A stretch of 41,175 bases of DNA from Gammaproteobacteria bacterium (lineage in GTDB: Bacteria; Pseudomonadota; Gammaproteobacteria; Steroidobacterales; JABDKV01). The notes beneath the pieces are model-generated. The model did not search any database. It was not told the DNA's origin and saw only the letters and a list, made by a program, of their open reading frames with translations. The DNA lies in NCBI GenBank assembly GCA_013003425.1, contig JABDJB010000010.1:1-41175 (forward strand), given 5' to 3'. Below, piece after piece: positions 3,068 to 17,241 of this stretch (positions are counted from its first letter, which is position 1; every line of letters begins with the position of its first letter). Position numbers and translations under genes: made by a program.

Positions 3068-4451
3068 CGCGCTACGCGCGCCGGCCGCCGCTACCACGCG
3101 CGCGACCGGACCTGCCGCAGCCGCCGTGCTGCGCACACCCGCAGTCAGCAATGCCTGGCAGCTTGGTACGCTGCTCGATGCAATAGCGCTCAGTGACAGT
3201 GTCGACGGGCGAGTGCGGCTGCAGATCGGCGCCCGTGTTGTTGACGCTCAGACTTCGCTGCCGTTACGCAGCGGCCAGACGCTGCGGCTCGAAGTCGCCG
3301 AGACCGGCCGCACCGTTGTGCTGCGAAATGTAGCCGAGCAAAACACAGCCGAAACCATAAAAGCGGGCATGCGCCAGTCGCTGCCACGGCAGCTGCCGCA
3401 GACCCGGGTGCTCGAGGCTGCGATGCAATTGGCAAAGCCCGACGTGCGCCTGCCGCCGCAGCTCAATGCTGTGGTGACGAAGCTGATTGAAACTGTACAG
3501 ACTGCTGCGACACTGACCCGGCCGGAAGGCCTGCGCGCGGCGGTGCGCGAGTCCGGCACTTTCCTGGAAAGCCGCCTGGCTGCCGCGGCAGGCGAACCGG
3601 TCAGCCGTGCACACGTGGCGGGCAACGACTGGAAGGCCGGTCTGCTGCGCTTCCGAGACCAGCTGGCGCAACTGCAGCAGCGACTTGCCGCAGGCGGTAA
3701 CACGCGCCCGGCGGCAGCAAACACCTTGCCGCGGGTTACGAGTGCAGCGCACCCGGCACCGGCAGTCGTAGTCACCCATTCGGCACCGGTGCAGCAATCA
3801 ACCGCTGCCGTAATGCTGGTCGTACAGACCAGAGCGCCGTTGCCGGCAGTGCCGGTTACCGTGCAGAGTCTGGTTACTGTGCAGAGTCCGGCCGCAAACC
3901 TGCAGCACGCAGCGCCGCCCATGCGTCATGCGCTGCCGCAGCCGCAGCCGGTGAACCAGCAGCCTGCCGCCATGCCCGGCGAACCGCTGTTACTGCTGGG
4001 CGACCTGATAAACAAGAGTGACGGCGCGCTGGCACGGGTGCGTCTGAACCAGCTCGCGTCGATTACTCCCGATACCTCGCCGCGACACGTCTGGCTGCTG
4101 GAGCTGCCGGTACAGCATCCCGATGGCCGTGCCGAAATAGTGCCGCTGCGGATCGAACGGGATGACGAGAGCGGCGGTTTGCAGCAGCAGGCGGCGTGGA
4201 CAGTCGACCTCGCTTTTGACCTGGGTCGTCGTGGCGCATTGCGCGCACGGGTCGCGTTGCGGGCCGGCAAGGTCTCGGCATCATTCTGGGCCGACGCCGA
4301 TGACACCCGCGCCGAGGTCAGCGGCAGGCTTGGCCAGCTCGAAGATGCACTGAAGAAAAAAGAGCTCGATGTCGGCAGCCTGACCTGCGGGGGTAGCCAG
4401 CCCATTGATCCGGCACCGCCGGAAAGCGGATTGCTGGAGGCAAAGGCATGA
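3042..4451 (+). CDS. FliK-like protein with C-terminal hook-length-control domain
   Basis: A 469-residue Ala/Pro/Gln-rich protein. Residues ~45-105 resemble the N-terminal beta domain of FliK-like proteins (RVRLQIGARVVDAQ, then SGQTLRLEVAETG). The middle is low-complexity and likely a flexible, secretable ruler-like linker. The last ~110 residues resemble a Flg_hook domain (WTVDLAFDLGRRGALRAR, VSASFWADADDTR, then LGQLEDALKKKELDVGSL). It overlaps the fliT-like gene by 26 bases and the FlhB-C gene by 4 bases, so translation is probably coupled. A separate, more canonical fliK exists at 30276-31487. Pairing with an FlhB C-terminal-domain protein suggests a role in export substrate control, but that is inference. 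Confidence 0.85.
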   Translation: MPTSRIPADALRAPAAATTRATGPAAAAVLRTPAVSNAWQLGTLLDAIALSDSVDGRVRLQIGARVVDAQTSLPLRSGQTLRLEVAETGRTVVLRNVAEQNTAETIKAGMRQSLPRQLPQTRVLEAAMQLAKPDVRLPPQLNAVVTKLIETVQTAATLTRPEGLRAAVRESGTFLESRLAAAAGEPVSRAHVAGNDWKAGLLRFRDQLAQLQQRLAAGGNTRPAAANTLPRVTSAAHPAPAVVVTHSAPVQQSTAAVMLVVQTRAPLPAVPVTVQSLVTVQSPAANLQHAAPPMRHALPQPQPVNQQPAAMPGEPLLLLGDLINKSDGALARVRLNQLASITPDTSPRHVWLLELPVQHPDGRAEIVPLRIERDDESGGLQQQAAWTVDLAFDLGRRGALRARVALRAGKVSASFWADADDTRAEVSGRLGQLEDALKKKELDVGSLTCGGSQPIDPAPPESGLLEAKA

Positions 4452-4717
4452 GCGAAGACACGCCACAGGTTGCCGTCGCGCTGAGCTATCCCGGCAAGGG
4501 TGCGCCACGCGTGGCCGCGAAGGGCCGCGGTGACGTGGCCGAGCGCATAGTCGAGCTGGCACGCGAAAACGATATTCCTTTGTGGCAGGACGCGGCGCTC
4601 GCCGGCGTGTTGTCAAAAGTCGATCTCGGTGACGAGATACCCGAAGCGCTTTACAAAGCTGTGGCTGAAGTCATCGCTTTTGCGTGGCGCCTGCGTCCTG
4701 ATACAAACAAGATCTAG
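4448..4717 (+). CDS. Stand-alone FlhB C-terminal-domain protein
   Basis: An 89-residue protein homologous to the cytoplasmic C-terminal piece of FlhB/SctU export-switch proteins. It aligns with residues just after the autocleavage site of the full FlhB encoded at 22774-23892: VAVALSYPGKGAPRVAAKGRG here against YAVALKYD-APQVVAKGRE there (segments only). Further matches are IPLWQDAALAGVL and DEIPEALYKAVAEVIAFAW. It begins after the cleavage motif, so it has no NPxH and no membrane segment. The ATGA overlap with the FliK-like gene argues for a functional pair. Small FlhB-like proteins of this kind are known in several flagellated bacteria; the role here is not established. Confidence 0.88.
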   Translation: MSEDTPQVAVALSYPGKGAPRVAAKGRGDVAERIVELARENDIPLWQDAALAGVLSKVDLGDEIPEALYKAVAEVIAFAWRLRPDTNKI

Positions 4718-4727
4718 ACCAATGCGT

Positions 4728-4733
4728 TAGAAT
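4728..4733 (+). promoter_or_regulatory. Possible -10 box for a leaderless TolB/TPR mRNA
   Basis: TAGAAT followed by six bases and the ATG of the gene at 4740, with no ribosome-binding site. No good -35 hexamer is seen at 16-18 bases upstream. It parallels the element before the gene at 15629. Confidence 0.3.
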
Positions 4734-4739
4734 CCCGCA

Positions 4740-6947
4740 ATGACTGAGAATGCGGGCTGGTGGGACGAACTGAAACGGCGCAACGTGGTGCGGGTTGGTA
4801 TTGCCTACGCCGTGATGGGGTGGATTGCCGCACAGGCCGCGCAGATACTGTTCGAGGTTTTCGAGGCGCCAGCCTGGGTTGCCAAGGTCGTTGTTTCGCT
4901 GATCGTCCTTGGGTTTCCTTTCGCGATTTTTTTCGCCTGGGCCTTCGAGCTGACGCCGCAGGGTCTGAAGCGCACTTACGAGGTCGATGCAGACGAATCG
5001 ATCACTCACAACACCGGACGCAAGGTGGATTTTGTCATTATCGTTGCGCTTGCGGTTGCGGTAATTTTTCTAGGTTGGGACAAGCTCAGTAATCGCAACC
5101 AGCCGGCGGCAACCGCCGCAACGGCTCAAATCACGGACGGTGCCCCGGTATTGCCTGCGGGTGGTGGCGGCAAGGACCCTGCATCAATTGCAGTGTTGCC
5201 CTTCGTTAACATGAGCGCCGATCCGGAGCAGGAATTTTTTTCTGACGGCATCTCTGAGGAATTGCTCAATCTGCTGGCACGAATACCAAACCTGAAGGTT
5301 GCGGCGCGGACTTCATCGTTTGCCTTCAAGGGGCGTAACGAGAATATCAGCGCGATCGCCGACACCCTGAAAGTTGCAAAGGTGCTCGAGGGCAGCGTGC
5401 GCAAGGCCGGAACAAAGTTGCGTATCACCGCGCAGCTGATCGAAGCCGACACTGGCTATCACCTCTGGTCCGATACTTTCGATCGCGAACTCGACGACGT
5501 GTTTGCAATCCAGGATGAAATCGCTGCAGCGATCGTTACTGCGCTGGAGCAGACGCTGGGGCTCCGCGGAGCGGCGCCGGCGACGGCGCGAACTTCCAAT
5601 CTCGAAGCCTACAACGCCTATCTCGAGGGCCGGCAGCTGATGGAGCAGCGTGGCCAGGGCCCGCTGGAGGCGGCGCAGGTCATGCTGGAGAAGGCCGTCG
5701 CGCTGGATCCGGAATTTGCGCCGGCCTATTCATCGCTGGCCGAAGCGGTGTTGTTGTTGCCCGGTTACAGGGGTGCATTTTCGAACCGTGAAGCGATCGA
5801 GCGGGCACAACCGCTGGTCGAGCGGGCGCTGGAGCTGGCGCCGGACTCCGCTGACTCGCTTGTGGCACAGGCGTTCCTGCTGGAACAGGACCAGCGTCCG
5901 GAAGAGGCAATTGCAGTCTATGATCAGGTGCTCGAGCTAAATCCAAATATGGTGCGGGCACTGATGTGGCGGGCCAGCACCCTCGGCGAAGTTGGGCGTT
6001 ACGAAGAGCAGCTCGAGAGTCTGCGCAGGGCCGTAATGCTCGATCCGCTGGGTTATGTGCCGGTGCAGAACACCGCGGTGCAGCTCCAGGTCCGGGGAGA
6101 ATTCGATGAGGCGGTCGCAACGATAGAGAAGCTGGTGCGCGTGCGACCGTCAGTTACCAGCTACGCCGGCCTTGCCAGCATACTCTCGGCCCAGGGCAAG
6201 AAAGACCGTGCACATGAGATATGGCTAAAGGCGCGCGATATCGCGCCCGATAACCAGGGCATCATTTTGGGCCTCAAGTGGATTTATAGCGACCTGGACA
6301 TGCTTGAGCAGTTCCGGCAGCTGGAGTCAGCGAGCCCACTGGACGAAGTCTGGCTGGTGATGCTGGAGCGGCGCTGGCCCGAGGCCGCGCAAATCATGGA
6401 ACAGCTCGTTGCGAACGAACCACCGGGCGTGCCGAGCCTCGTGCGCAACATTGCTGCGAATTCACAGCTGTTCGCCGGGAATCCGCAACGGGCACTGGAG
6501 CATTTTCAGCCTGTCGTCAATAGTACAACCGGGACTGTCGGGCCGCTGTTCGCTACTGAAGCCGATCCCCTGGTTACGAGCGTGATTGCAGCGCGGCGTC
6601 TCGCCGGGGACGGAAAAGGGGCACAGGAGCTCATTGGCCTGCTGCGTTCCTATCACGACGAGACTGTAGCAGCAGGACATGCCGATCCCGAGACGCTGCT
6701 TCGCGAAGCCCAGTTGCTGACACTCGAAGGTCAGACTGAAGCGTCGATGGCGCGACTGCGCGAGGTGGTCGATATGGGCTGGACCGGCGGTGACCTTCTC
6801 CTGTACTGGTCATTCATGCCGCTGCACAACGACCCGGAATTTCAACAGATACACGCCGACTGGGAGCGCGAGCGTGAACGCCAGCGCCAGGCAATACGCG
6901 AACAGCTTGGACTGTCGTCGTCGGGCCGCTCCCGTCAGATCTTGTAG
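4740..6947 (+). CDS. Membrane-anchored TolB-like / tetratricopeptide-repeat protein
   Basis: A 735-residue protein of unknown function. The N-terminal ~115 residues hold two or three hydrophobic segments (about 18-38, 48-68 and 97-114). Residues ~148-260 form a TolB-N-like domain with the signature SIAVLPFVNMSADPEQEFFSDG (first and last residues given). This arrangement is common in proteins annotated as adenylate-cyclase-associated or CadC-like TPR proteins, but there is no cyclase or DNA-binding domain here. From ~285 onward are degenerate TPR units, for example LEKAVALDPEFAPAYSSLAEA. There is no Shine-Dalgarno sequence; TAGAAT lies six bases before the ATG, which fits a leaderless start. 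It lies 22 bases after the FlhB-C gene but has no obvious flagellar link. Confidence 0.85.
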   Translation: MTENAGWWDELKRRNVVRVGIAYAVMGWIAAQAAQILFEVFEAPAWVAKVVVSLIVLGFPFAIFFAWAFELTPQGLKRTYEVDADESITHNTGRKVDFVIIVALAVAVIFLGWDKLSNRNQPAATAATAQITDGAPVLPAGGGGKDPASIAVLPFVNMSADPEQEFFSDGISEELLNLLARIPNLKVAARTSSFAFKGRNENISAIADTLKVAKVLEGSVRKAGTKLRITAQLIEADTGYHLWSDTFDRELDDVFAIQDEIAAAIVTALEQTLGLRGAAPATARTSNLEAYNAYLEGRQLMEQRGQGPLEAAQVMLEKAVALDPEFAPAYSSLAEAVLLLPGYRGAFSNREAIERAQPLVERALELAPDSADSLVAQAFLLEQDQRPEEAIAVYDQVLELNPNMVRALMWRASTLGEVGRYEEQLESLRRAVMLDPLGYVPVQNTAVQLQVRGEFDEAVATIEKLVRVRPSVTSYAGLASILSAQGKKDRAHEIWLKARDIAPDNQGIILGLKWIYSDLDMLEQFRQLESASPLDEVWLVMLERRWPEAAQIMEQLVANEPPGVPSLVRNIAANSQLFAGNPQRALEHFQPVVNSTTGTVGPLFATEADPLVTSVIAARRLAGDGKGAQELIGLLRSYHDETVAAGHADPETLLREAQLLTLEGQTEASMARLREVVDMGWTGGDLLLYWSFMPLHNDPEFQQIHADWERERERQRQAIREQLGLSSSGRSRQIL

Positions 6948-7043: not shown

Positions 7044-8291
7044 ATGGCCAAAGCGCACATCGTCGACACAAAGGATCAGGCCCGGGTCCCGTTTCTGCGC
7101 GGCATACTTACCCGTTCGCTGCGTGATGCGGGCCTGACTTTCGAAGAAGCCTACGATATTGCCTCGGTGATGCGCGACCGGCTCGGCGATGCCGAGATCA
7201 GCAGCGACCAACTGCGCATTCAGGTTGCCGAGCTGCTGCGCAAGCGCTACGACACCAGCGTTGTCGAGCGCTACCTGGCCCGGCGCAAGCGCGCACCGGC
7301 CACCATCCTGGTAGAGAGCGGTGATGGCCTGGTTACGCCATTTTCCCGCGGGCGGCACATGCAGTTCCTTGAAGCCAGTGGCCTGACTGTGCGCCAGGCC
7401 GAACCGGTGACCGCGCGAGTGTACGAACACCTGCTGCGTAAAGGCGTCACCAAGATTCCAACCTGCCGGCTGAGTCATCTTACTTACCTGGCCCTGAAAA
7501 AAAGCCTCGGCAACAAGGCGGCAAAGCGTTACCTGGTGTGGTTTCAATTTGCCCATAGCGGTCAGCCACTGCTGATCCTGATCGGCGGCACCGTCGGCTG
7601 CGGCAAAAGCACGCTGGCAACGGCGCTGGCGCACAAGCTTGACGTCGTGCGCATCCAGTCAACCGACATGCTGCGCGAGGTGATGCGCATGATGGTGCCG
7701 GAGCGCATGCTGCCGGTGCTGCACACCTCGTCGTTCAACGCCTGGCGCAAGCTGCCGTTTGCCGATGTGCGGCAGGCGGACCCGGAAGTTCTTATCGCGG
7801 ACGGCTACCAGAGCCAGGCCGAGTTGCTGGCGGTAGCAGGGGAAGCGGTACTAAATCGTGCCCGCAAGGAGCGCGTCGCCCTGATCCTCGAAGGCGTGCA
7901 CATCCAGCCGGCATTTGCCGAGAGCCTGCGCGATGTCGACGATGCCATCATCGTGCCGCTGGTACTTGCCGTGCTGAAGCAGAAGGAGCTGCGCAAGCGC
8001 ATCAAGGGGCGTGGCACGCAGGCACCGCGGCGCCGCGCGCGGCGTTACCTGCGGGAATTCGATTCGATCTGGCGGCTGCAGTCATTCCTGCTGTCCGAGG
8101 CTGATCGCTGCGATGTGCCCATCGTGAGCAATATAGATAAGGAGAAGGCTACTCACGAAGTGGTACGGGTGGTCATTGACCGGCTGACCGGGGTTTTTCA
8201 CGGCAAGCCGCGACAGGTATTCGGCATCATCCCGGGGCACAACCTGCCCGAGACCATGCCGGGCCCGGCACGCAGCGCGGCGTCCGCCTGA
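7044..8291 (+). CDS. ATP-cone P-loop kinase, 2-phosphoglycerate kinase-like
   Basis: A 415-residue protein with two ATP-cone-like regions (residues ~1-85 and ~93-165; the second includes DGLVTPFSRGRHMQFLEASG) followed by a P-loop kinase domain. Walker A is GGTVGCGKST at 181-190. This resembles archaeal 2-phosphoglycerate kinase, which makes 2,3-bisphosphoglycerate, but the bacterial relatives have uncertain substrates. A basic stretch (RRRARRYLREF) sits near residues 329-339, possibly part of a lid. It lies just upstream of the pst operon on the same strand, about 150 bases from pstS, which suggests a link to phosphate metabolism. No clear ribosome-binding site is visible. Kinase fold secure; substrate unknown. 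Confidence 0.72.
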   Translation: MAKAHIVDTKDQARVPFLRGILTRSLRDAGLTFEEAYDIASVMRDRLGDAEISSDQLRIQVAELLRKRYDTSVVERYLARRKRAPATILVESGDGLVTPFSRGRHMQFLEASGLTVRQAEPVTARVYEHLLRKGVTKIPTCRLSHLTYLALKKSLGNKAAKRYLVWFQFAHSGQPLLILIGGTVGCGKSTLATALAHKLDVVRIQSTDMLREVMRMMVPERMLPVLHTSSFNAWRKLPFADVRQADPEVLIADGYQSQAELLAVAGEAVLNRARKERVALILEGVHIQPAFAESLRDVDDAIIVPLVLAVLKQKELRKRIKGRGTQAPRRRARRYLREFDSIWRLQSFLLSEADRCDVPIVSNIDKEKATHEVVRVVIDRLTGVFHGKPRQVFGIIPGHNLPETMPGPARSAASA

Positions 8292-8440: not shown

Positions 8441-9331
8441 ATGTCCGATCGACGCGTTCCTTTGCGTGCCAGCATGGTGCTGGCAGCTGCCGTGCTGCTG
8501 GCTGCCTGCGGTGGAGGCGAACGCCGCCAGGTGATCCAGAACAAGGGTTCCGACACGCTGGTCAACGTTGCCCAGGCGTGGGCGGAAGAGTACCAGACGG
8601 TCGATCAGTCGGTTGTTGTTGCCGTATCCGGCGGCGGCTCAGGTACCGGCATTGCCGCGCTGATCAATGGCACCGTCGATCTTGCCAACGCCAGTCGGGC
8701 AATGAAACAGAAAGAAATCGACCTGGCGAAGTCATCGGGTCAGAATCCAATCCAGCATATCGTTGGCTACGATGCGTTGGCCGTTTTCGTGCATCAAGAT
8801 AACCCGATTGGCCCCATGTCGCTGGCGCTGCTGGCCGAGATCTACGGTGACGGCAGCACAATTTCCAAGTGGACGGATCTGGGCATCGAGGTGCCGGGCT
8901 GCCAGGGCCAGGAAATGGTGCTGGTGAGCCGGCAGAACAACTCCGGTACTTACTCGTACTTTCGCAGTGCGGTACTGGGCAAAGAGCGTGAGTTCCGTCT
9001 TGGCACCCGCGACATGCACGGATCCAAGGACGTCGTTGACCTGGTAGAGAAAACACCCTGCGCGATTGGCTACAGCGGCCTGGCCTACGCGACCGATCAC
9101 ATCAAGATGGCCTGTATTTCGAGTGCTGAAGGTGCGCCGTGTGTCGAACCGACGGTTGCCAGTGCCAGCGACCGCAGCTACCCGATTGCCCGGCCGCTGT
9201 TCATGTACACCAATGGCGAGCCGGCCGGTCACATCAAGGCCTACCTGGACTGGATCCTGTCCGATACCGGGCAATGCATCATCCTGGAGAAAGGCTACGC
9301 ACCGGCGCGTGGTGTAAGCTGCGGCGGTTGA
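8441..9331 (+). CDS. pstS: Phosphate ABC transporter substrate-binding lipoprotein PstS
   Basis: A 296-residue PstS-type phosphate-binding protein. The signal peptide ends in a lipobox LAAC with Cys at residue 23, so it is probably a membrane-anchored lipoprotein rather than a free periplasmic protein. The phosphate-binding loops are recognisable: NKGSDTLVNVAQAW, VSGGGSGTGIAALINGTVDLANASR (ends cited), and SRQNNSGTYSYFRSAVLG near residues 165-182. GGGGGAGA-type purines precede the ATG. It is the first gene of pstS-phoU*-pstC-pstA-pstB-pstB. A candidate Pho box precedes it. The mature protein has several Cys residues (for example VPGCQGQ, TPCAIG, ACISS, APCVE), which could form disulfides. Confidence 0.93.
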   Translation: MSDRRVPLRASMVLAAAVLLAACGGGERRQVIQNKGSDTLVNVAQAWAEEYQTVDQSVVVAVSGGGSGTGIAALINGTVDLANASRAMKQKEIDLAKSSGQNPIQHIVGYDALAVFVHQDNPIGPMSLALLAEIYGDGSTISKWTDLGIEVPGCQGQEMVLVSRQNNSGTYSYFRSAVLGKEREFRLGTRDMHGSKDVVDLVEKTPCAIGYSGLAYATDHIKMACISSAEGAPCVEPTVASASDRSYPIARPLFMYTNGEPAGHIKAYLDWILSDTGQCIILEKGYAPARGVSCGG

Positions 9332-9364
9332 TTCCCCGGTGAACCCAGTCTGGAGGTAGTAAGC

Positions 9365-10426
9365 ATGAGCCACTACGAAGAACGGCTCGCAAATGACCTG
9401 GAGCATATTAATGCCAGCGTTCGCGCTATGGCGGGCCTGGTGGAGCGCGCTCTGAAAGACGCGATGCATGCGCTGCTGGACGGCGATGCGCAGCTGGCCA
9501 ACCTGACGGTGTTGCGTGATAACCGAATTAACCGTGCCTCGCGCGAACTCGATCGGCTGTGTCATGCATTTATTGCCCGGCATTTGCCCGGGGCAGGGCA
9601 CCTGCGGCTGATCTCGGCCGTGATACGCCTCAACGTCGCGCTGGAACGCATCGGTGATTACGCCGTGACGATTTCGCGCGAATCCCTGCAGCTGTCTTCG
9701 CCGCCGGCCGGGCACCTGGCACGCGAGCTGGACCGGGTGGCTGACGAATCCCGCCGCATCCTGCACCAGGCCATCGAGGTGTTCGACTCCAGAAATGCTG
9801 ATGCCGCGGCCGCCACGATTCCGATGAGCGAGAACATCGAGAACATGATGGACGATGTTTACGCGGAGCTGATTGGCACTGAAAGCAGCCGTAGCCCGCG
9901 CGAGATCGTCGCGGCGTTTGTCGTGTTCAGCCTGCTCAAGCGAATTTCCGATCAGGGTAAGAACATCTGTGAGCAGACCCTGTTTGCAGTCACCGGTCAT
10001 ACAAAGAAAACGAAGACGTTCAACATCTTGTTTGTTGACGGCGACGACTGCGAACGCAGCCTGATGGCGCAGGGTATCGGCCGCAAGAGCTACCCTGAGG
10101 CAGCCAGCTATTCCAGTGCCGCCCGCGAGCCGCGTGCTGAGATGGCTACGGGCCTGGCGGATTTTCTCGATTCCTGCGGCATCGATGCCGGCCAGCTGGT
10201 GGTCGGCAGGCTGCGCGCAGGCCAGCACGAGCTGCAGGAGTACGACATCATTGTCAGCCTCAGCGGACCGGTGTCGAGTCACATCGAGGAAATTCCTTTT
10301 CACACCTCTGCTATCGAGTGGCCGGTTGGATCGGACTTGACCGGATCGGGCGGTTACGAAGATCTATACCGCTATCTCAAGCAGCAGATCGATGAACTAA
10401 TCGACGTGCTCGCAGGCGAAGGTTGA
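9365..10426 (+). CDS. PhoU protein fused to a degenerate LMW-phosphatase/ArsC-like domain
   Basis: A 353-residue two-domain protein. Residues 1-~212 are a full PhoU with two helical repeats; the motifs LRLISAVIRLNVALERIGDYA (~80-100) and LLKRISDQGKNICEQTLFAVTG (~190-211) are the repeated PhoU signatures. PhoU links Pst transporter state to PhoR/PhoB signalling. Residues ~218-353 resemble the low-molecular-weight tyrosine phosphatase/arsenate reductase fold: FNILFVDGDDCERSLMAQ matches the P-loop strand, but the nucleophilic Cys position is Asp225, while Arg231 and Ser232 are kept. A DIIVSLSG strand and an IEWPVGSD element also fit. The domain is therefore probably non-catalytic. The gene sits between pstS and pstC, not at the operon end as in E. 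coli. Confidence 0.85.
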   Translation: MSHYEERLANDLEHINASVRAMAGLVERALKDAMHALLDGDAQLANLTVLRDNRINRASRELDRLCHAFIARHLPGAGHLRLISAVIRLNVALERIGDYAVTISRESLQLSSPPAGHLARELDRVADESRRILHQAIEVFDSRNADAAAATIPMSENIENMMDDVYAELIGTESSRSPREIVAAFVVFSLLKRISDQGKNICEQTLFAVTGHTKKTKTFNILFVDGDDCERSLMAQGIGRKSYPEAASYSSAAREPRAEMATGLADFLDSCGIDAGQLVVGRLRAGQHELQEYDIIVSLSGPVSSHIEEIPFHTSAIEWPVGSDLTGSGGYEDLYRYLKQQIDELIDVLAGEG

Positions 10427-10442: not shown

Positions 10443-11357
10443 ATGAGTCGATCCAAAGCCACCGATTTCGATCGCCGGAACCTCGACTGGTATATCGACC
10501 GCCTGTTGCAGGCCGTTGTCTTCCTCGGTGGTATTTCGGCGATCATCTTCATCGTCGGTATTTTTGTCTTCGTAACGCGCGAGGGTCTCGGCTTTCTCAC
10601 CACTGATTTCGACGCCGGCGAATTCCTGCTGTCGCCCCTGTGGCGCCCGACATCTGAAACAAATCCGACCTACGGCATCCTGGCGCTGATTGCCGGTACG
10701 GCCAGCGTTACCGGGCTGGCGATGCTCGTCGCGGTGCCGTTTTCGCTCGGCGCGGCGATATTCATCGCCGAGTTTGCCACCGGGCGGACGCGTGAGATTC
10801 TGAAGATCCTGGTCGAAATGCTTGCCGCCATACCGTCGGTCGTGTGGGGTTTTATCGGACTGTCCATAATGAACCCCCTGATCATTGAGTGGTTCAACGT
10901 GCCGGTCGGTCTCAACGTGCTCAACGCCGGGGTGATCCTGGGGTTGATGGCGGCACCGATCATGACGTCTATTGCCGAAGACGCCCTGAAAGCAGTGCCG
11001 GACCGTTACCGCGAGGCGGCTGAAGCCATGGGAGCAACCCGCTGGCAGGTCATCAGCCGGGTTGTGCTGCCGGCCGCAAAGAACGGCCTGCTCGGCGCGG
11101 TGCTGCTGGGTGTCGGGCGCGGCTTTGGTGAGACCATGGCCGTACTGATGGCGACCGGCCACTCGGTGAATATTCCCGGCAGTATTTTCGATTCTGTTCG
11201 TGCACTTACGGCGACTATAGCGGCTGAGCTGGGCGAAACGGCTGTCGGCTCGCCGCATTACCAGGCGTTGTTCACCATCGGGATCTTCCTGTTCGTAATA
11301 ACTTTCATCATCAACCTGACCGCGGATCTGATCGTCCGCGGAATCCGGAATAAGTAG
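10443..11357 (+). CDS. pstC: Phosphate ABC transporter permease PstC
   Basis: A 304-residue inner-membrane permease subunit of the Pst phosphate importer. Six hydrophobic segments are visible, the first at about residues 23-45 and the last at ~277-297. The EAA-type cytoplasmic loop that docks the ATPase is ALKAVPDRYREAAEAMGATRWQ (ends cited), and GVGRGFGETMAVLMATG follows, both typical of PstC. The gene starts 17 bases after the PhoU-fusion gene and ends two bases before pstA. Because the operon encodes two unequal ATPases, the PstC loop and the PstA loop may each prefer one of them; this is inference. Confidence 0.95.
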   Translation: MSRSKATDFDRRNLDWYIDRLLQAVVFLGGISAIIFIVGIFVFVTREGLGFLTTDFDAGEFLLSPLWRPTSETNPTYGILALIAGTASVTGLAMLVAVPFSLGAAIFIAEFATGRTREILKILVEMLAAIPSVVWGFIGLSIMNPLIIEWFNVPVGLNVLNAGVILGLMAAPIMTSIAEDALKAVPDRYREAAEAMGATRWQVISRVVLPAAKNGLLGAVLLGVGRGFGETMAVLMATGHSVNIPGSIFDSVRALTATIAAELGETAVGSPHYQALFTIGIFLFVITFIINLTADLIVRGIRNK

Positions 11358-11359
11358 TC

Positions 11360-12232
11360 ATGATGTTTGCCGCCTCCAGTCAGAACGACAAGGATCGCCG
11401 TACCCAGCGGCTTTACTTCATGCTGTTCGGAGTGATGACGCTGCTGCTGATCCTGCCGGTGCTGATCATACTCACGACACTGGTGGTAAAGGGCGGGCCG
11501 GCATTGTCGATCGATTTCCTGTTCACCAACCCGACCAACGGCATGACGGCCGGCGGCATCTTCCCGGCACTGCTGGGTACGATCTGGCTGGTGCTGGTCG
11601 CGTTGCTGTTCTCGGTGCCGCTGGGCGTGGCTGCGGCCATCTACCTCAGCGAGTACGCACCGGCAAACGTGTTCACGCGCATCATCAACCTCGCCATCAT
11701 AAACCTGGCCGGTGTGCCGTCGATTGTGCATGCGTTGTTCGGCGTCGGCGCCTTCGTTATTTTCTTCCGCTTTGGCACCAGCATCCTGGCAGCCAGCCTG
11801 ACCCTGGGCATCATGACGCTGCCGGTCGTTATTGTTGCCACCCGCGAGTCGCTGCAGGCCGTACCACACGCGTTTCGTGAAGCGTGCTGGAACATGGGCG
11901 CAACCCGCTGGCAGACGATTCGCCGCGTGGTACTGCCAAATGCCATCACCGGTATCCTGACCGGCGTGATTCTCGAGGTGTCGCGCACATCCGGTGAGAC
12001 GGCACCGATCATGTTTACCGGCGCGGCGTTTTTCCTGCCGTTCCTGCCGCAGGGCGTGCTCGACCAGACGATGGCGCTGTCGCTGCACCTGTTTGTCGTA
12101 TCAACGCAGGTGCCTGACATGCCCGAGCAACTGCCGTTCGGCGTGGCGCTGGTGCTGATCGGCATTGTGCTGATCATGAACAGTATTTCTATCGCGTTTC
12201 GCATGTACCTGCGGGGCAAAAAGAAGTGGTAA
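11360..12232 (+). CDS. pstA: Phosphate ABC transporter permease PstA
   Basis: A 290-residue permease that pairs with PstC. It has about six membrane segments, beginning at residues ~19-45. The coupling loop REACWNMGATRWQTIRRVVLP and the following EVSRTSGETAPIMFTGAAFF are characteristic of PstA. A shared GATRWQ motif is present in both permeases. The reading frame overlaps the first pstB by seven bases (pstB1 begins at a GTG inside the last pstA codons), so the two are probably translationally coupled. Confidence 0.95.
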   Translation: MMFAASSQNDKDRRTQRLYFMLFGVMTLLLILPVLIILTTLVVKGGPALSIDFLFTNPTNGMTAGGIFPALLGTIWLVLVALLFSVPLGVAAAIYLSEYAPANVFTRIINLAIINLAGVPSIVHALFGVGAFVIFFRFGTSILAASLTLGIMTLPVVIVATRESLQAVPHAFREACWNMGATRWQTIRRVVLPNAITGILTGVILEVSRTSGETAPIMFTGAAFFLPFLPQGVLDQTMALSLHLFVVSTQVPDMPEQLPFGVALVLIGIVLIMNSISIAFRMYLRGKKKW

Positions 12233-13011
12233 GCACGAGCGGCACCCTCGGCGCGGACACGGCAAAGATCTCGGTACGCGATCTGCAGATCAGCTATGGC
12301 GATCTGGCTGCCCTGAGCGGTGTCAACCTCGATATCCGCGAGAACGAGATTTTCGGCGTCATCGGTCCGGCGAATGCAGGTAAAACCTCATTCCTGAAAG
12401 CGCTGAACCGCATGGATATGTTTAATACTGAAATGCAGGTCAGCGGGGATATCAGCTTCAGCGGCCGCGACACGCGCAACCTGCGCAATGTCTATGCATT
12501 GCGCCGGCGGATCGGTGTGGTATTTCCGCTGCCGGTCGGTCTGCCAATGAACGTTTACGATAATGTGGCGCTTGCACCACGGCTGGGCGGCCAGCGCAAC
12601 AAAGACGAGCTGGATGTGATCGTCGAACGCTGCCTGCGTCGTGCGGCGCTGTGGGACGAGGTGAAGGATCGTCTGGATACTCTTGGCAGCATGCTGTCCG
12701 GCGGGCAGCAGCAGCGCCTGACTATTGCGCGTGCCCTGTCACAGGAGCCGGAAGTGCTGATGCTGGACGAGTTTTCCATCGCGGTGGACCCGGTTACCAC
12801 CATGCGCATCGAGGATGTGCTTAAGGAGCTGCGCGACGAGATGACTATTATCCTCGTGACAAATTTGGTGCAGCAGGCGCGGCGCCTCGCCGACCGGACG
12901 GCTTTCTTCCTGGAGGGCCGCTGCGTCGAGATCGGCGACACCGAGAACCTGTTCACCGGCGCGGTACAGGACCAGCGCACCCGCGACTATGTGGAGGGGC
13001 GTTTTGGCTGA
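12226..13011 (+). CDS. pstB: PstB-type ATPase 1, keeps LSGGQ but lacks Q-loop Gln and H-loop His
   Basis: A 261-residue PstB-family ABC ATPase starting at GTG. Walker A is an unusual but consensus-compatible GPANAGKT (47-54). The Q-loop position reads VVFPLP, with Pro101 where PstB has Gln. The signature LSGGQQQRL (157-165) is intact. Walker B ends in LMLDEF with Asp181 and Glu182. The D-loop reads IAVD instead of SALD. The switch His is Asn213 (IILVTNLVQQA against the normal VTHNMQQA). It is therefore a good signature donor but should be poor at hydrolysis in its own site. The adjacent second PstB has the opposite pattern, which suggests an asymmetric heterodimer. Confidence 0.92.
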   Translation: MVSTSGTLGADTAKISVRDLQISYGDLAALSGVNLDIRENEIFGVIGPANAGKTSFLKALNRMDMFNTEMQVSGDISFSGRDTRNLRNVYALRRRIGVVFPLPVGLPMNVYDNVALAPRLGGQRNKDELDVIVERCLRRAALWDEVKDRLDTLGSMLSGGQQQRLTIARALSQEPEVLMLDEFSIAVDPVTTMRIEDVLKELRDEMTIILVTNLVQQARRLADRTAFFLEGRCVEIGDTENLFTGAVQDQRTRDYVEGRFG

Positions 13012-13801
13012 TCCGGCAAGGCAGGCAGGCAGCGCGGGCGACTTGGCAATCCGCACCCGGGATCTCAATCTCTGGTACGGCACTTTCCAGGCGCTTTTCG
13101 ATATCAATCTCGACGTGCGTCACGGGATTATTACGTCACTGATCGGTCCCTCGGGTTGCGGCAAGTCAACATTCCTGCGCAGCGTCAATCGCATCAACGA
13201 GCGACTGGATTACGTGCGCATCAGCGGCTCGATCGATGTGATGGGCGAGAATATTTTTGCCCCTGGTGTCGAGCTGCTGCAGGTTCGCAAGCAGGTTGGC
13301 ATGGTGTTCCAGCGTCCCAATCCGCTGCCCCTGTCAATTCGCGACAATGTTCTGTTCGGCCATCGCCTGCACGAGGCGCGTGGCAAGGGGGCAAGAGCCA
13401 ATGCGGATGATGTGGTCGAGAAGGCGCTGCGCGAAGTCCTGTTGTGGGACAAGGTAAAGGACCGGCTCAATAATCGCGCCATCGATCTGTCGCTGGAAGA
13501 GCAGCAGAAGCTCTGCATCGCCCGGCTGCTGCCGGTCAAGCCGCGGGTACTGCTAATGGACGAGCCGTGCTCGGCGCTCGATCCGAAAGGCACCGAGGCA
13601 GTCGAGGAGCTGATCTGGGAGCTGCGCGGTGAATACACGATTCTCATCGTCACGCACAATATGGCCCAGGCCCGCCGTGCCAGCGAGGAATGCGTGTTCA
13701 TGCTGATGGGCAAGGTGGTCGAGCATACCGCCACAGACACCATGTTCGTGACGCCGCAGCACAAGGAAACGGCTGACTACATCGAAGGCCGCTACGGCTG
13801 A
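13004..13801 (+). CDS. pstB: PstB-type ATPase 2, keeps Walker/Q/H motifs but has a degenerate signature
   Basis: A 265-residue PstB paralog. Counted from the upstream ATG at 12989, Walker A is GPSGCGKS (53-60), the Q-loop Gln is 108 in VGMVFQRPNP, Walker B ends LLMDEPCSALD with Asp191/Glu192, and the switch His is 223 in IVTHNMAQA. The signature is degenerate: LSLEEQQKL (167-175) where PstB has LSGGQQQRL. I prefer TTG at 13004 as the start because GGAGGGG lies just before it inside the end of pstB1; ATG 12989 lacks a ribosome-binding site. The gene overlaps pstB1 by 8 bases. Its motifs complement those of pstB1 exactly. Confidence 0.92.
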   Translation: MADPARQAGSAGDLAIRTRDLNLWYGTFQALFDINLDVRHGIITSLIGPSGCGKSTFLRSVNRINERLDYVRISGSIDVMGENIFAPGVELLQVRKQVGMVFQRPNPLPLSIRDNVLFGHRLHEARGKGARANADDVVEKALREVLLWDKVKDRLNNRAIDLSLEEQQKLCIARLLPVKPRVLLMDEPCSALDPKGTEAVEELIWELRGEYTILIVTHNMAQARRASEECVFMLMGKVVEHTATDTMFVTPQHKETADYIEGRYG

Positions 13802-13829: not shown

Positions 13830-13905
13830 TGTCAGTAATCTCCCTGATTTGTGACCATGGGAATCCGCGGTACCCTGACCGGATATCTACGTGGGGGCGG
13901 GTTTT

Positions 13906-15591
13906 ATGGATTCAGGTACGCTACAGCTGGGCGCGATCATCATGGGGTTGGTCGGCGGGCTTTCGATCTTTCTCTACGGCATGGAGTTGCTCACCGACTC
14001 CCTGAAAAAGGTAGCCGGCGAGCGCATGAAGACGCTGCTGGCGCGGATTACGACCAACCGGTTCAAGGGTGTTTTCGCCGGTGCATTCACTACGGCGGTT
14101 ATCCAGTCTTCCTCTGTGACCACGGTGCTGGCGGTGGGTTTTGTATCAGCCGGGCTGATGAATCTGCGCCAGTCTATCGGCATCATTATGGGAGCCGAGA
14201 TCGGTACCACGATCACCGCGCAGATCATCGCCTTCAAGATTACCAAGTTTGCGCTGCTGGCCGTTTCGATCGGCTTCCTGCTGAACTTCTTTTTCCGTGA
14301 AGACCGCATAAAGCGCTATGGCCTGATGGTGCTGGGTTTTGGCCTGGTGTTTTTTGGCATGAACATGATGGGCGAGGCTACCTACCCGCTGCGTGATTAC
14401 GAGCCCTTTATCAATCTGCTGCGTGACATGGAGAAACCGCTGTTCGCGGTGCTGCTCAGCGCCGGCTTTACCGCGCTGATCCAGAGCTCCTCTGCCACCA
14501 CCGGCGTCATTATCGTGCTGGCCAGCCAGGGGCTCATTACGCTGGAGCAGGGTATTGCGCTGGTATTCGGGGCCAATATTGGCACCTCTGTAACCGCCGT
14601 GCTGGCATCGATCGGCAAACCGCGTGAGGCCGTGCGCACCGCGCTGATCCACGTGACGTTCAACGTCCTCGGCGTCACGCTCTGGTTCAACTTCATCGAC
14701 GAGGTGGCAGCGCTCATCCGCACGGTGTCGCCGGTCGTTGCCGGCCTCGGCGGCATCGAGAAGCTTGCTGCCGAAACGCCGCGGCAGATTGCCAACGCAC
14801 ACACTTTGTTCAACGTCGGCAATACGCTGTTGTTTATCTGGTTTGTGGGCATCTTTGTCTGGATCGTGACCCGGCTGGTGCCGGATAAACCGAAACCGGA
14901 GGTCAAAGAGATAAAACCGAAGTATCTCGATCGTGAACTGCTGGAAACGCCGACGCTGGCATTCGATATGGTCCGGCTGGAGCTCGGCCGGCTCGCGCAG
15001 CAGGTCCTGCCGATGGTCGAACAGGGTCCCGGCATCGTCATGACGGGCAGCAAGGCACAGCTTGACAAGCTGCGCCAGCAGGATGATGGCGTCGATACGC
15101 TGTACGATGCGATCGTCGCGTATATCGGCGAGCTGTCGATACATCCGCTGACGCCGGAGCAGTCCGAGATGCTGCACGATTACATGTCGATTGCCGGAAA
15201 CCTCGAGAGTATCGGCGACACGCTGGAAACCAACCTTGTACATGCGGGTCACGAACGGATTCGCCACAACGTCACGGTCAGCCCGGAGACCCGGAAAGTC
15301 ATCGGGGAACTGGCCGAAAAGGTCCACTGGGCCGTTGCCACCTCGGCAAAAGCAGTCATCGACGATGACCGGCATGCAGCTTTCGACGTCATCGAGGCGA
15401 AGTCAGACATCAATGAGCTGGTAGAAGAAGCCGAGCATCACCTGGAACAGCGACTCACAGTGGATGCGCCGCAACGGCTGGCGACCTACCGTATGGAAAC
15501 CGAGCTGATCGAGAATCTGAAACGCGTGTACTATTTTGCCAAGCGTATCGCCAAGGCAAGCGTGGTGGAATCGATGCAGCAGGCGGCCTGA
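13906..15591 (+). CDS. Na+/phosphate cotransporter with C-terminal PhoU-like helices
   Basis: A 561-residue Na/Pi-cotransporter (PF02690-type, NptA/YjbB-like). Two inverted repeats each carry the QSSS signature: AVIQSSSVTT (Gln at ~67) and ALIQSSSATTG (Gln at ~193). About eight to nine hydrophobic segments span residues 5-330. After a Lys/Pro linker (KPKPEVKEIKPK) the last ~210 residues are helical and PhoU-like, including SIAGNLESIGDTLETNL and NLKRVYYFAKRIAKA. I chose ATG 13906 because GGGGGCGGG precedes it; an in-frame GTG at 13891 is possible. It lies just after the pst genes, giving a second, Na+-linked phosphate route. Transport direction cannot be told from sequence. Confidence 0.92.
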   Translation: MDSGTLQLGAIIMGLVGGLSIFLYGMELLTDSLKKVAGERMKTLLARITTNRFKGVFAGAFTTAVIQSSSVTTVLAVGFVSAGLMNLRQSIGIIMGAEIGTTITAQIIAFKITKFALLAVSIGFLLNFFFREDRIKRYGLMVLGFGLVFFGMNMMGEATYPLRDYEPFINLLRDMEKPLFAVLLSAGFTALIQSSSATTGVIIVLASQGLITLEQGIALVFGANIGTSVTAVLASIGKPREAVRTALIHVTFNVLGVTLWFNFIDEVAALIRTVSPVVAGLGGIEKLAAETPRQIANAHTLFNVGNTLLFIWFVGIFVWIVTRLVPDKPKPEVKEIKPKYLDRELLETPTLAFDMVRLELGRLAQQVLPMVEQGPGIVMTGSKAQLDKLRQQDDGVDTLYDAIVAYIGELSIHPLTPEQSEMLHDYMSIAGNLESIGDTLETNLVHAGHERIRHNVTVSPETRKVIGELAEKVHWAVATSAKAVIDDDRHAAFDVIEAKSDINELVEEAEHHLEQRLTVDAPQRLATYRMETELIENLKRVYYFAKRIAKASVVESMQQAA

Positions 15592-15616
15592 GCGAGCCCG
15601 GTCCATTTTGCAATGA

Positions 15617-15622
15617 TAGAAT
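15617..15622 (+). promoter_or_regulatory. Possible -10 box for a leaderless ppk2 mRNA
   Basis: TAGAAT ends exactly six bases before the ATG at 15629, and no Shine-Dalgarno sequence is present. The same TAGAAT-N6-ATG arrangement occurs at 4728-4740 before the TolB/TPR gene. The spacing would place transcription start at or next to the A of the ATG. No convincing -35 is visible. Confidence 0.35.
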
Positions 15623-15628
15623 CGTCGT

Positions 15629-16462
15629 ATGCTGGATAAGATCGATCTCGGCCAGAAGCTGGGCAAAGAAGAATATCGGCACCAACGAAGCATCCTTCGT
15701 ACCCGGCTGCTGCGGCTGCAGCGTGCCTGCTGGAAAAACAAGGTGCCTGTGGTCGTTGTGTTCGAGGGCTGGAAAGGGACCGGCAAGGGCGGGATTATCA
15801 ACGCGCTGACCCAGCCGCTCGAGCCGCGCGGGTTTCACTTTCACGCAATGCAGGCGCGGCGCAGTTACGAGGCGCTTATGCCCTGGTTATGGCGCTACTG
15901 GCTCAGGATTCCCAACTACGGCGAAATGGCTATTTTTGACCGCTCCTGGTACCGGCGTGTGCTGGTCGACCGGGTCGAGGGCGACGTGTCAGAAGTGGAA
16001 TGGCGCGAGGCTTACCGTGACATCAGCGATTTTGAGAGAACGCTTGCGGATGACGGCTACAAGATCCTGAAGTTTTTTCTGCACACATCACGGAAAGAGC
16101 AGAAAAAGCGCTTTCGCAAGCTGGAAGCCAACCCGCTGGAGTCATGGCGGGTGCACCCGGAGCACTGGCGGCAGAACAAGCTTTACAACGACTACGTGGT
16201 GTTGATCGAGGAAATGCTGGAACTTACCGAGTCGGAATGGGCGCCATGGACCATTATCGAGGCGCCGGACAAGCGTTTTGCACGCATCAAGGTGCTGCAG
16301 ACGGTGGCCGAGGCAATGAACGAGGCCCTGGCAAGTCGTGGCATCGAAATGCCTGAAGACAATTTCGAGGACGACTACCTGCGGCTGGCGGAGGAATCTG
16401 ACGAATTAAGTGAGGTTGATGCGGATGACAATGATGATGCAGGCGAGGCCGGACCGGTATGA
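15629..16462 (+). CDS. ppk2: PPK2-family polyphosphate kinase, Walker A variant (Pap N-domain-like)
   Basis: A 277-residue PPK2-family protein. PPK2 enzymes transfer phosphate between polyphosphate and nucleotides. The core is VVVVFEGWKGTGKGG with Walker A at 47-54; the usual Asp of GWDAAGKGG is Lys49. Walker B is AIFDRSWYRRVLVDRVEG with Asp104. The C-terminal ~35 residues are a very acidic tail (EESDELSEVDADDNDD). It overlaps the next PPK2 gene by four bases (ATGA). A degenerate domain followed by a canonical one is what I would expect of a two-domain Pap-type enzyme (AMP to ADP) encoded as two chains. Whether this chain is catalytic is uncertain. Confidence 0.9.
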   Translation: MLDKIDLGQKLGKEEYRHQRSILRTRLLRLQRACWKNKVPVVVVFEGWKGTGKGGIINALTQPLEPRGFHFHAMQARRSYEALMPWLWRYWLRIPNYGEMAIFDRSWYRRVLVDRVEGDVSEVEWREAYRDISDFERTLADDGYKILKFFLHTSRKEQKKRFRKLEANPLESWRVHPEHWRQNKLYNDYVVLIEEMLELTESEWAPWTIIEAPDKRFARIKVLQTVAEAMNEALASRGIEMPEDNFEDDYLRLAEESDELSEVDADDNDDAGEAGPV

Positions 16463-17241
16463 GCTCCCTGGACACCGTTGACCTGAGCGTCAGCATCGAT
16501 GCCGACTCATACGTTCATGAGTTGCGCCGCGCGCAGCTGCAGTTGCGCACGCTGGCGTACGAGTTGTACAAGGCGAAGCGATCAGTAATTGTGGTCTTCG
16601 AGGGTTGGGATGCTGCCGGCAAGGGCGGCAATATCCGGCGCCTGACAGAGATGCTCGATCCGCGCGGTTACCAGGTGTTCACCATCGCGGCGCCAACCGG
16701 CGATGATGCAACTCATCATTATCTGTGGCGTTTCTGGCGCCGGCTGCTGCCGCCAGACGAAAAGCAGATCCTGATTTTTGATCGCAGCTGGTACGGGCGC
16801 GTGATGGTCGAGCGGCTTGAGGGCTTCGCCGCCGAAGAGGAATGGAAGCGCGCCTACCGCGAGATCAATGATTTCGAGCGACAGCTCACTGACTTTGGCA
16901 CGATAGTGCTGAAGTTCTGGATTCATATCAGCCGCGAAGAACAGCTGGAGCGGTTTGAAAATCGCCGCAACACGCCGCGCAAGGCGTGGAAACTGACCGA
17001 CGAAGACTGGCGTAACCGCGACAAGTGGGACGACTATGCGGCGGCGGTCAATGAGATGTTGGTAAAGACCTCTACGTTGCGGGCACCGTGGGTCATAGTC
17101 GAGGGCAACGACAAATACTACGCGCGGGTCAAAACGGTGAAGGTGCTGGTACAGGCTATCGCTGATGCGCTCGAAATGGAGCCACCAACCGTATCGGTGC
17201 CGGCTCTGAAAGAAAGCAACGGCAAGACGACGAAAAAATAG
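16459..17241 (+). CDS. ppk2: PPK2-family polyphosphate kinase, canonical motifs (Pap C-domain-like)
   Basis: A 260-residue PPK2 with all main motifs: VIVVFEGWDAAGKGGNIRRL (Walker A 49-56, Asp51), ILIFDRSWYGRVMVERLEGF (Walker B Asp108) and a lid region near residues 150-175 with Arg/Lys-rich FENRRNTPRKAWK. It should use polyphosphate to phosphorylate a nucleoside mono- or diphosphate. The ATG overlaps the stop of the upstream PPK2, so both chains are probably made in equal amounts. Together they total 537 residues, close to a fused Pap. The stop is 24 bases from the convergent DUF2802 gene, and I see no good terminator in that gap. Confidence 0.93.
   Translation: MSSLDTVDLSVSIDADSYVHELRRAQLQLRTLAYELYKAKRSVIVVFEGWDAAGKGGNIRRLTEMLDPRGYQVFTIAAPTGDDATHHYLWRFWRRLLPPDEKQILIFDRSWYGRVMVERLEGFAAEEEWKRAYREINDFERQLTDFGTIVLKFWIHISREEQLERFENRRNTPRKAWKLTDEDWRNRDKWDDYAAAVNEMLVKTSTLRAPWVIVEGNDKYYARVKTVKVLVQAIADALEMEPPTVSVPALKESNGKTTKK

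Follow-up and report, generated by a model that had tools for sequence, protein, structure and literature searches.

Escherichia coli PhoU mutants altered at Ala147 or Arg148, including R148E, neither bind PhoR nor signal, yet they still bind PstB and escape the growth defect (PMC4423584), and in Salmonella PhoU, Ala147 and Arg184 touch PhoR (PMC9239213). The pst locus of Enterococcus faecalis, a member of the Firmicutes, contains two adjacent pstB genes, each encoding a PstB that keeps all motifs (PMC12096839). The heterodimeric ATP-binding cassette (ABC) exporters BmrCD and PatAB combine one consensus with one degenerate ATP site (PMC4046567, PMC9541285). Here we compared these systems with a pst operon in a 41,175-nucleotide stretch of contig JABDJB010000010.1 of a Gammaproteobacteria bacterium (the whole stretch is referred to as the window, and coordinates are window positions unless a locus is named). 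Between pstS and pstC lies an open reading frame (ORF) of 353 amino acids (aa) on the plus strand (9365-10426), in which PhoU and a low-molecular-weight (LMW) phosphatase/ArsC-like domain form one protein, termed PhoU-D (gene phoU.D). A literature search of partial coverage returned no description of a PhoU+ArsC/LMWPc fusion, an asymmetric PstB or a bacterial LMW pseudophosphatase.

The PhoU part and its PhoR contacts

9365..10426, plus strand: PhoU-LMWPc(Asp) fusion gene, 353 aa, with 54 distinct homologous fusions
9365..10000, plus strand: PhoU domain, residues 1-212 (Pfam PhoU 3e-26; model Z 29.2 to 4q25)
9785..9790, plus strand: Asp141-Ser142, the equivalents of E. coli PhoU Ala147-Arg148 (PhoR contact; mutants in PMC4423584), both replaced

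The PhoU part matched Pfam PF01895 with an E value of 3e-26 (92 bits, cut-off 23.5) and barely exceeded the 130.25-bit cut-off of TIGR02135 (131.7 bits). Its model matched Pseudomonas aeruginosa PhoU (4q25) at Z 29.2, that is, it has the two-bundle fold of the E. coli, Salmonella and P. aeruginosa PhoU proteins (TIGR02135). Like canonical PhoU, PhoU-D retains the first E-R-x-G/A-D motif and is encoded in a pst operon, but it adds the C-terminal ArsC-like domain, lacks the PhoR-contact residues Ala147, Arg148 and Arg184 as well as the MEDPR loop, and is usually encoded between pstS and pstC, whereas canonical phoU follows pstB. Homologous fusions were gathered from a genome-contig collection and by searches of Gammaproteobacteria, Acidobacteriota, Magnetococcia and Schekmanbacteria. 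The 54 distinct fusions recovered across these four large groups ruled out an artefact or a chance fusion. A plasmid collection searched with the fusion gave only ordinary PhoU-like matches that covered part of the query. A 523-aa open frame on the minus strand (8732-10303), antisense to pstS and the fusion, is probably a by-product of high-GC codon use.

The loss of the PhoR contacts extended across the family. The position equivalent to Arg148 was occupied by Glu or Asp in 31 of the 54 fusions, with no Arg among the residues listed, whereas canonical PhoU had Arg in 28/33; the Arg184 equivalent was kept in 7/54 fusions versus 29/33 canonical proteins, and the MMEDPR loop, kept in the canonical set, was gone from the fusions. 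Residues 147, 148 and 184 of the E. coli PhoU sequence used as reference agree with the published Ala, Arg and Arg. The window genome also contains a phoB-phoR-phoU locus without pst genes (L235; G000:C56, 7380-10128), in which a canonical PhoU of 233 aa with the PhoR-contact residues present is encoded directly after phoB and phoR. The loss of the contacts in PhoU-D, together with a canonical PhoU beside phoR, supports a split in which PhoU-D serves the transporter and canonical PhoU serves PhoR, and it makes the PhoR signalling role raised in the preliminary description of this locus doubtful. PhoU is known as a bridge between PstB and PhoR, and co-evolution could have accompanied the divergence of both proteins; PhoU-D might still touch PhoR, either with its tail or with a remodelled surface, and replace canonical PhoU in signalling. 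We consider this unlikely, given the charge reversal at the Arg148 position, the lost MEDPR loop and the canonical PhoU next to phoR, which has the contact residues.

The putative pseudophosphatase tail

10010..10423, plus strand: pseudo-LMW-phosphatase/ArsC-like domain, residues 216-353 (AlphaFold2 and Foldseek/VIA-align to pI258 ArsC; Pfam LMWPc in 14/16 relatives)
10031..10060, plus strand: former P-loop FVDGDDCERS, in which Asp225 (10037-10039) replaces the catalytic Cys; Arg231 at 10055-10057

By itself, the window tail gave no Pfam match and a weak match to arsC_pI258_fam (E 0.013). Pfam LMWPc (PF01451) matched 14 of 16 family tails (best 8.7e-12), the window copy not being among the matches, and a profile built from 12 homologous tails retrieved free-standing LMW phosphatase/ArsC ORFs of ~150 aa carrying C-x5-R-S loops, with E values down to 2e-17. 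The tail was modelled with AlphaFold2 from a 12-sequence alignment (pLDDT 90, pTM 0.87). The top Foldseek match of the model was pI258 ArsC (E 2e-8, TM 0.79), and alignment to the pI258 ArsC structure 2cd7 gave Z 18.0 and a root-mean-square deviation of 1.9 Å over 129 residues; in the full-length model, the pI258 ArsC match spanned residues 216-350. The profiles and models confirmed that the C-terminal residues ~216-353 have the fold of LMW protein tyrosine phosphatases (LMW-PTP) and ArsC rather than an unrelated one, and the fusion proposed in the preliminary description was thereby borne out. The tail shares with pI258 ArsC, a thioredoxin-linked arsenate reductase, and with LMW-PTPs the entire fold, the loop frame with Asn(+3) and often Ser(+7) and M-A-E, and the Trp at the acid-loop strand. 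It differs from them in having Asp for the nucleophilic Cys, in the Arg being mostly gone, in the absence of the ArsC resolving cysteines, and in being fused rather than free-standing.

Asp225 aligned to the same place as the nucleophilic Cys of ArsC. This position was Asp in 52 of the 54 fusions, Glu in one, Ser in one and Cys in none, so that the replacement first noticed in the window is family-wide and not a local mutation. The P-loop Arg position held Arg in only 7/54 fusions (Leu in 29, Gln in 9), and the C-x5-R-S catalytic loop is therefore absent from the family, while the loop Asn(+3) was present in 45/54. In contrast, the 46 free-standing LMWPc relatives had Cys in 45 and the loop Arg in all 46. 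A Cys moved by a few residues was ruled out by multiple alignments, in which Cys229 of the window copy fell at a variable loop position. In the tree, the fused tails formed a single clade separate from the free-standing ones (support 0.96), indicating one ancient fusion event. The early-branching acidobacterial fusions retained everything except the Cys (FVDQHNSCRSRMAEA ... DWSVADPS), which suggests that the Cys-to-Asp change came first and that erosion of the Arg and of the acid-loop Asp followed.

Judged from these sequences, the tail is a dead phosphatase/reductase domain, as had been proposed for the window copy, yet it has been maintained, the Asp being the best protected of the former catalytic positions; phosphatase and arsenate reductase activities are predicted to be absent. 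An ArsC role against arsenic is unsupported, as both the catalytic loop and the resolving cysteines are gone. The preliminary description took the remaining Arg231-Ser232 as a sign of an anion site and suggested a phosphate or arsenate sensor or an interaction module, of which the interaction module fared better. A catalytically dead domain that binds anions, senses phosphate or arsenate in the cytosol and relays this to Pst/PhoR would fit the LMW-PTP/ArsC fold, the loop Asn and Ser that are often retained, and the Arg retained in the window copy and in early-branching copies from Acidobacteriota, in which the W..(D)DP acid loop is likewise present. However, the Arg is gone in 47/54 fusions while the Asp remains, which makes a conserved anion sensor unlikely; moreover, an acidic residue in the oxyanion site repels anions, and the PhoR contacts of PhoU-D are lost. 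On balance, we regard the sensor as a rather poor candidate.

Compared with the PhoU part and with PstC, the tail evolves faster, and its catalytic residues are gone, as would be expected if it were a functionless, decaying relic of a chance fusion. This is improbable, since the tail was retained in 54 fusions from four groups of phylum or class rank, since the ratio of nonsynonymous to synonymous substitution rates (dN/dS) was 0.08-0.25 in six pairs (dS being saturated in some), in line with purifying selection, and since it keeps the near-invariant Asp together with an invariant Trp and the conserved PFHT segment. Least probable of all is a chemically active Asp225, either a phosphoryl acceptor (from PhoR or acetyl phosphate) or a nucleophile in a receiver-like or aspartate-phosphatase module: the Asp is nearly invariant although the rest of the loop drifts, and its place is where the first strand ends, but a second conserved pair of acidic residues for Mg2+ is missing, the PhoR contact residues are lost, and one family member has Ser.

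Two unequal PstB subunits and the operon

12226..13011, plus strand: pstB1; Walker A and LSGGQ intact, Q-loop Gln->Pro at 12526-12528, H-loop His->Asn at 12862-12864
12989..13801, plus strand: pstB2; Walker A, Q-loop and H-loop intact, signature LSGGQ->LSLEE at 13487-13504

The operon encodes two complementary, half-degenerate PstB subunits, which the preliminary description had overlooked. The Q-loop Gln was replaced by Pro and the H-loop His by Asn in all 65 PstB1 homologues. PstB2 homologues carried LSLEE- or LQLEQ-like sequences in place of LSGGQ, which occurred in none of the motif variants listed, and retained Walker A, the Q-loop and the H-loop with rare exceptions. In an acidobacterial subgroup (L111, L112, L113, L114, L115, L127, L129, L133, L134, L231 and L232), the D-loop ALDP of PstB2 was changed to ALDV, ALDA or ALDT. 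The PstB motifs of the E. coli reference sequence were cross-checked on the canonical PstB proteins of 25 related genomes, all of which had every ABC motif. PstB1 and PstB2 formed separate clades (supports 1.0 and 0.98), and both scored below the 343.2-bit cut-off of the PstB equivalog family TIGR00972 (PstB2, 321.6-321.8 bits; PstB1, 282.9-283.2 bits). When the window genome was searched family by family, no further PstB was found, the next best ABC protein scoring 153 bits; hence, this operon appears to be its Pst system.

In a head-to-tail dimer of the usual kind, the PstB2 nucleotide site together with the PstB1 LSGGQ is predicted to be complete and the opposite site degenerate, and a homodimer of either subunit is predicted to have no complete ATP site. 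We infer from these motifs that PstB1 pairs obligately with PstB2 and that the heterodimer has a single working ATP site. Two adjacent pstB genes per pst locus also occur in E. faecalis, but the motifs there are intact, whereas here each PstB lacks the part that the other supplies; Firmicutes two-PstB systems were accordingly ruled out as an explanation. The predicted pairing of a consensus and a degenerate site resembles that of BmrCD and PatAB, but the present system is a phosphate importer with separate nucleotide-binding domain (NBD) chains and a PhoU regulator.

8441..9331, plus strand: pstS, phosphate-binding lipoprotein (TIGR02136 above cut-off; conserved neighbour)
10443..11357, plus strand: pstC permease (TIGR02138 above cut-off)
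11360..12232, plus strand: pstA permease (TIGR00974 above cut-off)

From pstS through pstB2, the window genes are spaced by 33, 16, 2, -7 and -23 bp, and the order pstS-phoU.D-pstC-pstA-pstB1-pstB2 is recurrent. The place of the fusion between pstS and pstC, previously described as unusual, is normal for this operon type in Gammaproteobacteria, Magnetococcia and part of the Acidobacteriota; in several Acidobacteriota the fusion precedes pstS. Of the 50 loci that did not run into a contig end, 48 had both PstB genes adjoining the fusion, and the fusion and a DNA marker for pstB2 were found in the identical 8 of 369 gammaproteobacterial genomes.

Several loci differed in arrangement. Eleven acidobacterial genomes (L116-L126) had pstS-pstC-pstA-pstB1-pstB2 and no fusion, with an ordinary phoU kilobases away on the same contig in most. 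At L213 (G760:C75, ~3567-6212, minus strand), there is a second copy of PhoU-D next to a PstC-like protein (34% identical), and the PstB2-like protein has nearly all ABC motifs broken (GARKCGKS, LTDEE, LDDP, ATSN); by its sequence, this locus is a wholly degenerate Pst paralogue. L227 (G754:C60) contains pstS-phoU.D-pstC-pstA with no pstB in the 3.6 kb downstream, and its genome holds a complete second copy at L224. Adjoining the window operon is an ATP-cone + P-loop kinase gene (7044-8291), read as 2-phosphoglycerate-kinase-like, which also occurs upstream or downstream of this pst operon in distant lineages (L036, L039, L141 and L045). After the operon, at 13891-17241, a Na/Pi cotransporter with a PhoU domain and two tandem PPK2 genes make up a phosphate island.

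A proposed PhoU for the transporter

The explanation that we favour, with a confidence that is about even, is that PhoU-D is a paralogue of PhoU that serves only a variant Pst importer, with a pseudophosphatase tail for docking. The PstB1-PstB2 heterodimer would hydrolyse ATP at the site made of the PstB2 Walker A/B motifs, Q-loop and H-loop and the PstB1 LSGGQ, and the other site would be non-hydrolysing. PhoU-D would dock on this pair, as E. coli PhoU does on PstB, and limit phosphate uptake; it would pass no signal to PhoR, which would be left to canonical PhoU. The tail may serve in docking or allostery by recognising the two unequal NBDs, its Asp side chain probably filling the former oxyanion site and fixing the loop in an "occupied" shape. 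More tentatively, the sequences and models point to a separate lineage of Pst systems, in which an obligate PstB1/PstB2 pair with a single working ATP site would be gated by a PhoU of its own, which reads the asymmetric NBDs with its pseudo-ArsC domain, PhoR signalling being left to the second, canonical PhoU.

Some of the observations weigh against this explanation. In at least 11 acidobacterial genomes, the asymmetric PstB1/PstB2 pair occurred where PhoU was of the ordinary kind and the fusion was missing from the neighbourhood, indicating that the PstB pair does not need the tail; the tail may have been added onto an already asymmetric transporter or lost in those Acidobacteriota. Among the fusion loci, L213 and L227 are exceptions to the PstB1/PstB2 pairing, and the second, PhoR-linked PhoU was fully checked in the window genome only.

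It has long been asked how PhoU shares itself between restraining uptake via PstB and keeping PhoR silent, and E. coli mutants such as R148E separate these two tasks. Here, nature seems to have arrived at the same division by giving the transporter and the kinase a PhoU each. With its unequal PstB subunits, the system would be a Pst importer that has a degenerate ATP site and offers a natural test of whether a single hydrolysing site suffices for phosphate uptake, and the conserved Cys-to-Asp replacement presents a pseudophosphatase in bacteria whose partner system is clear.
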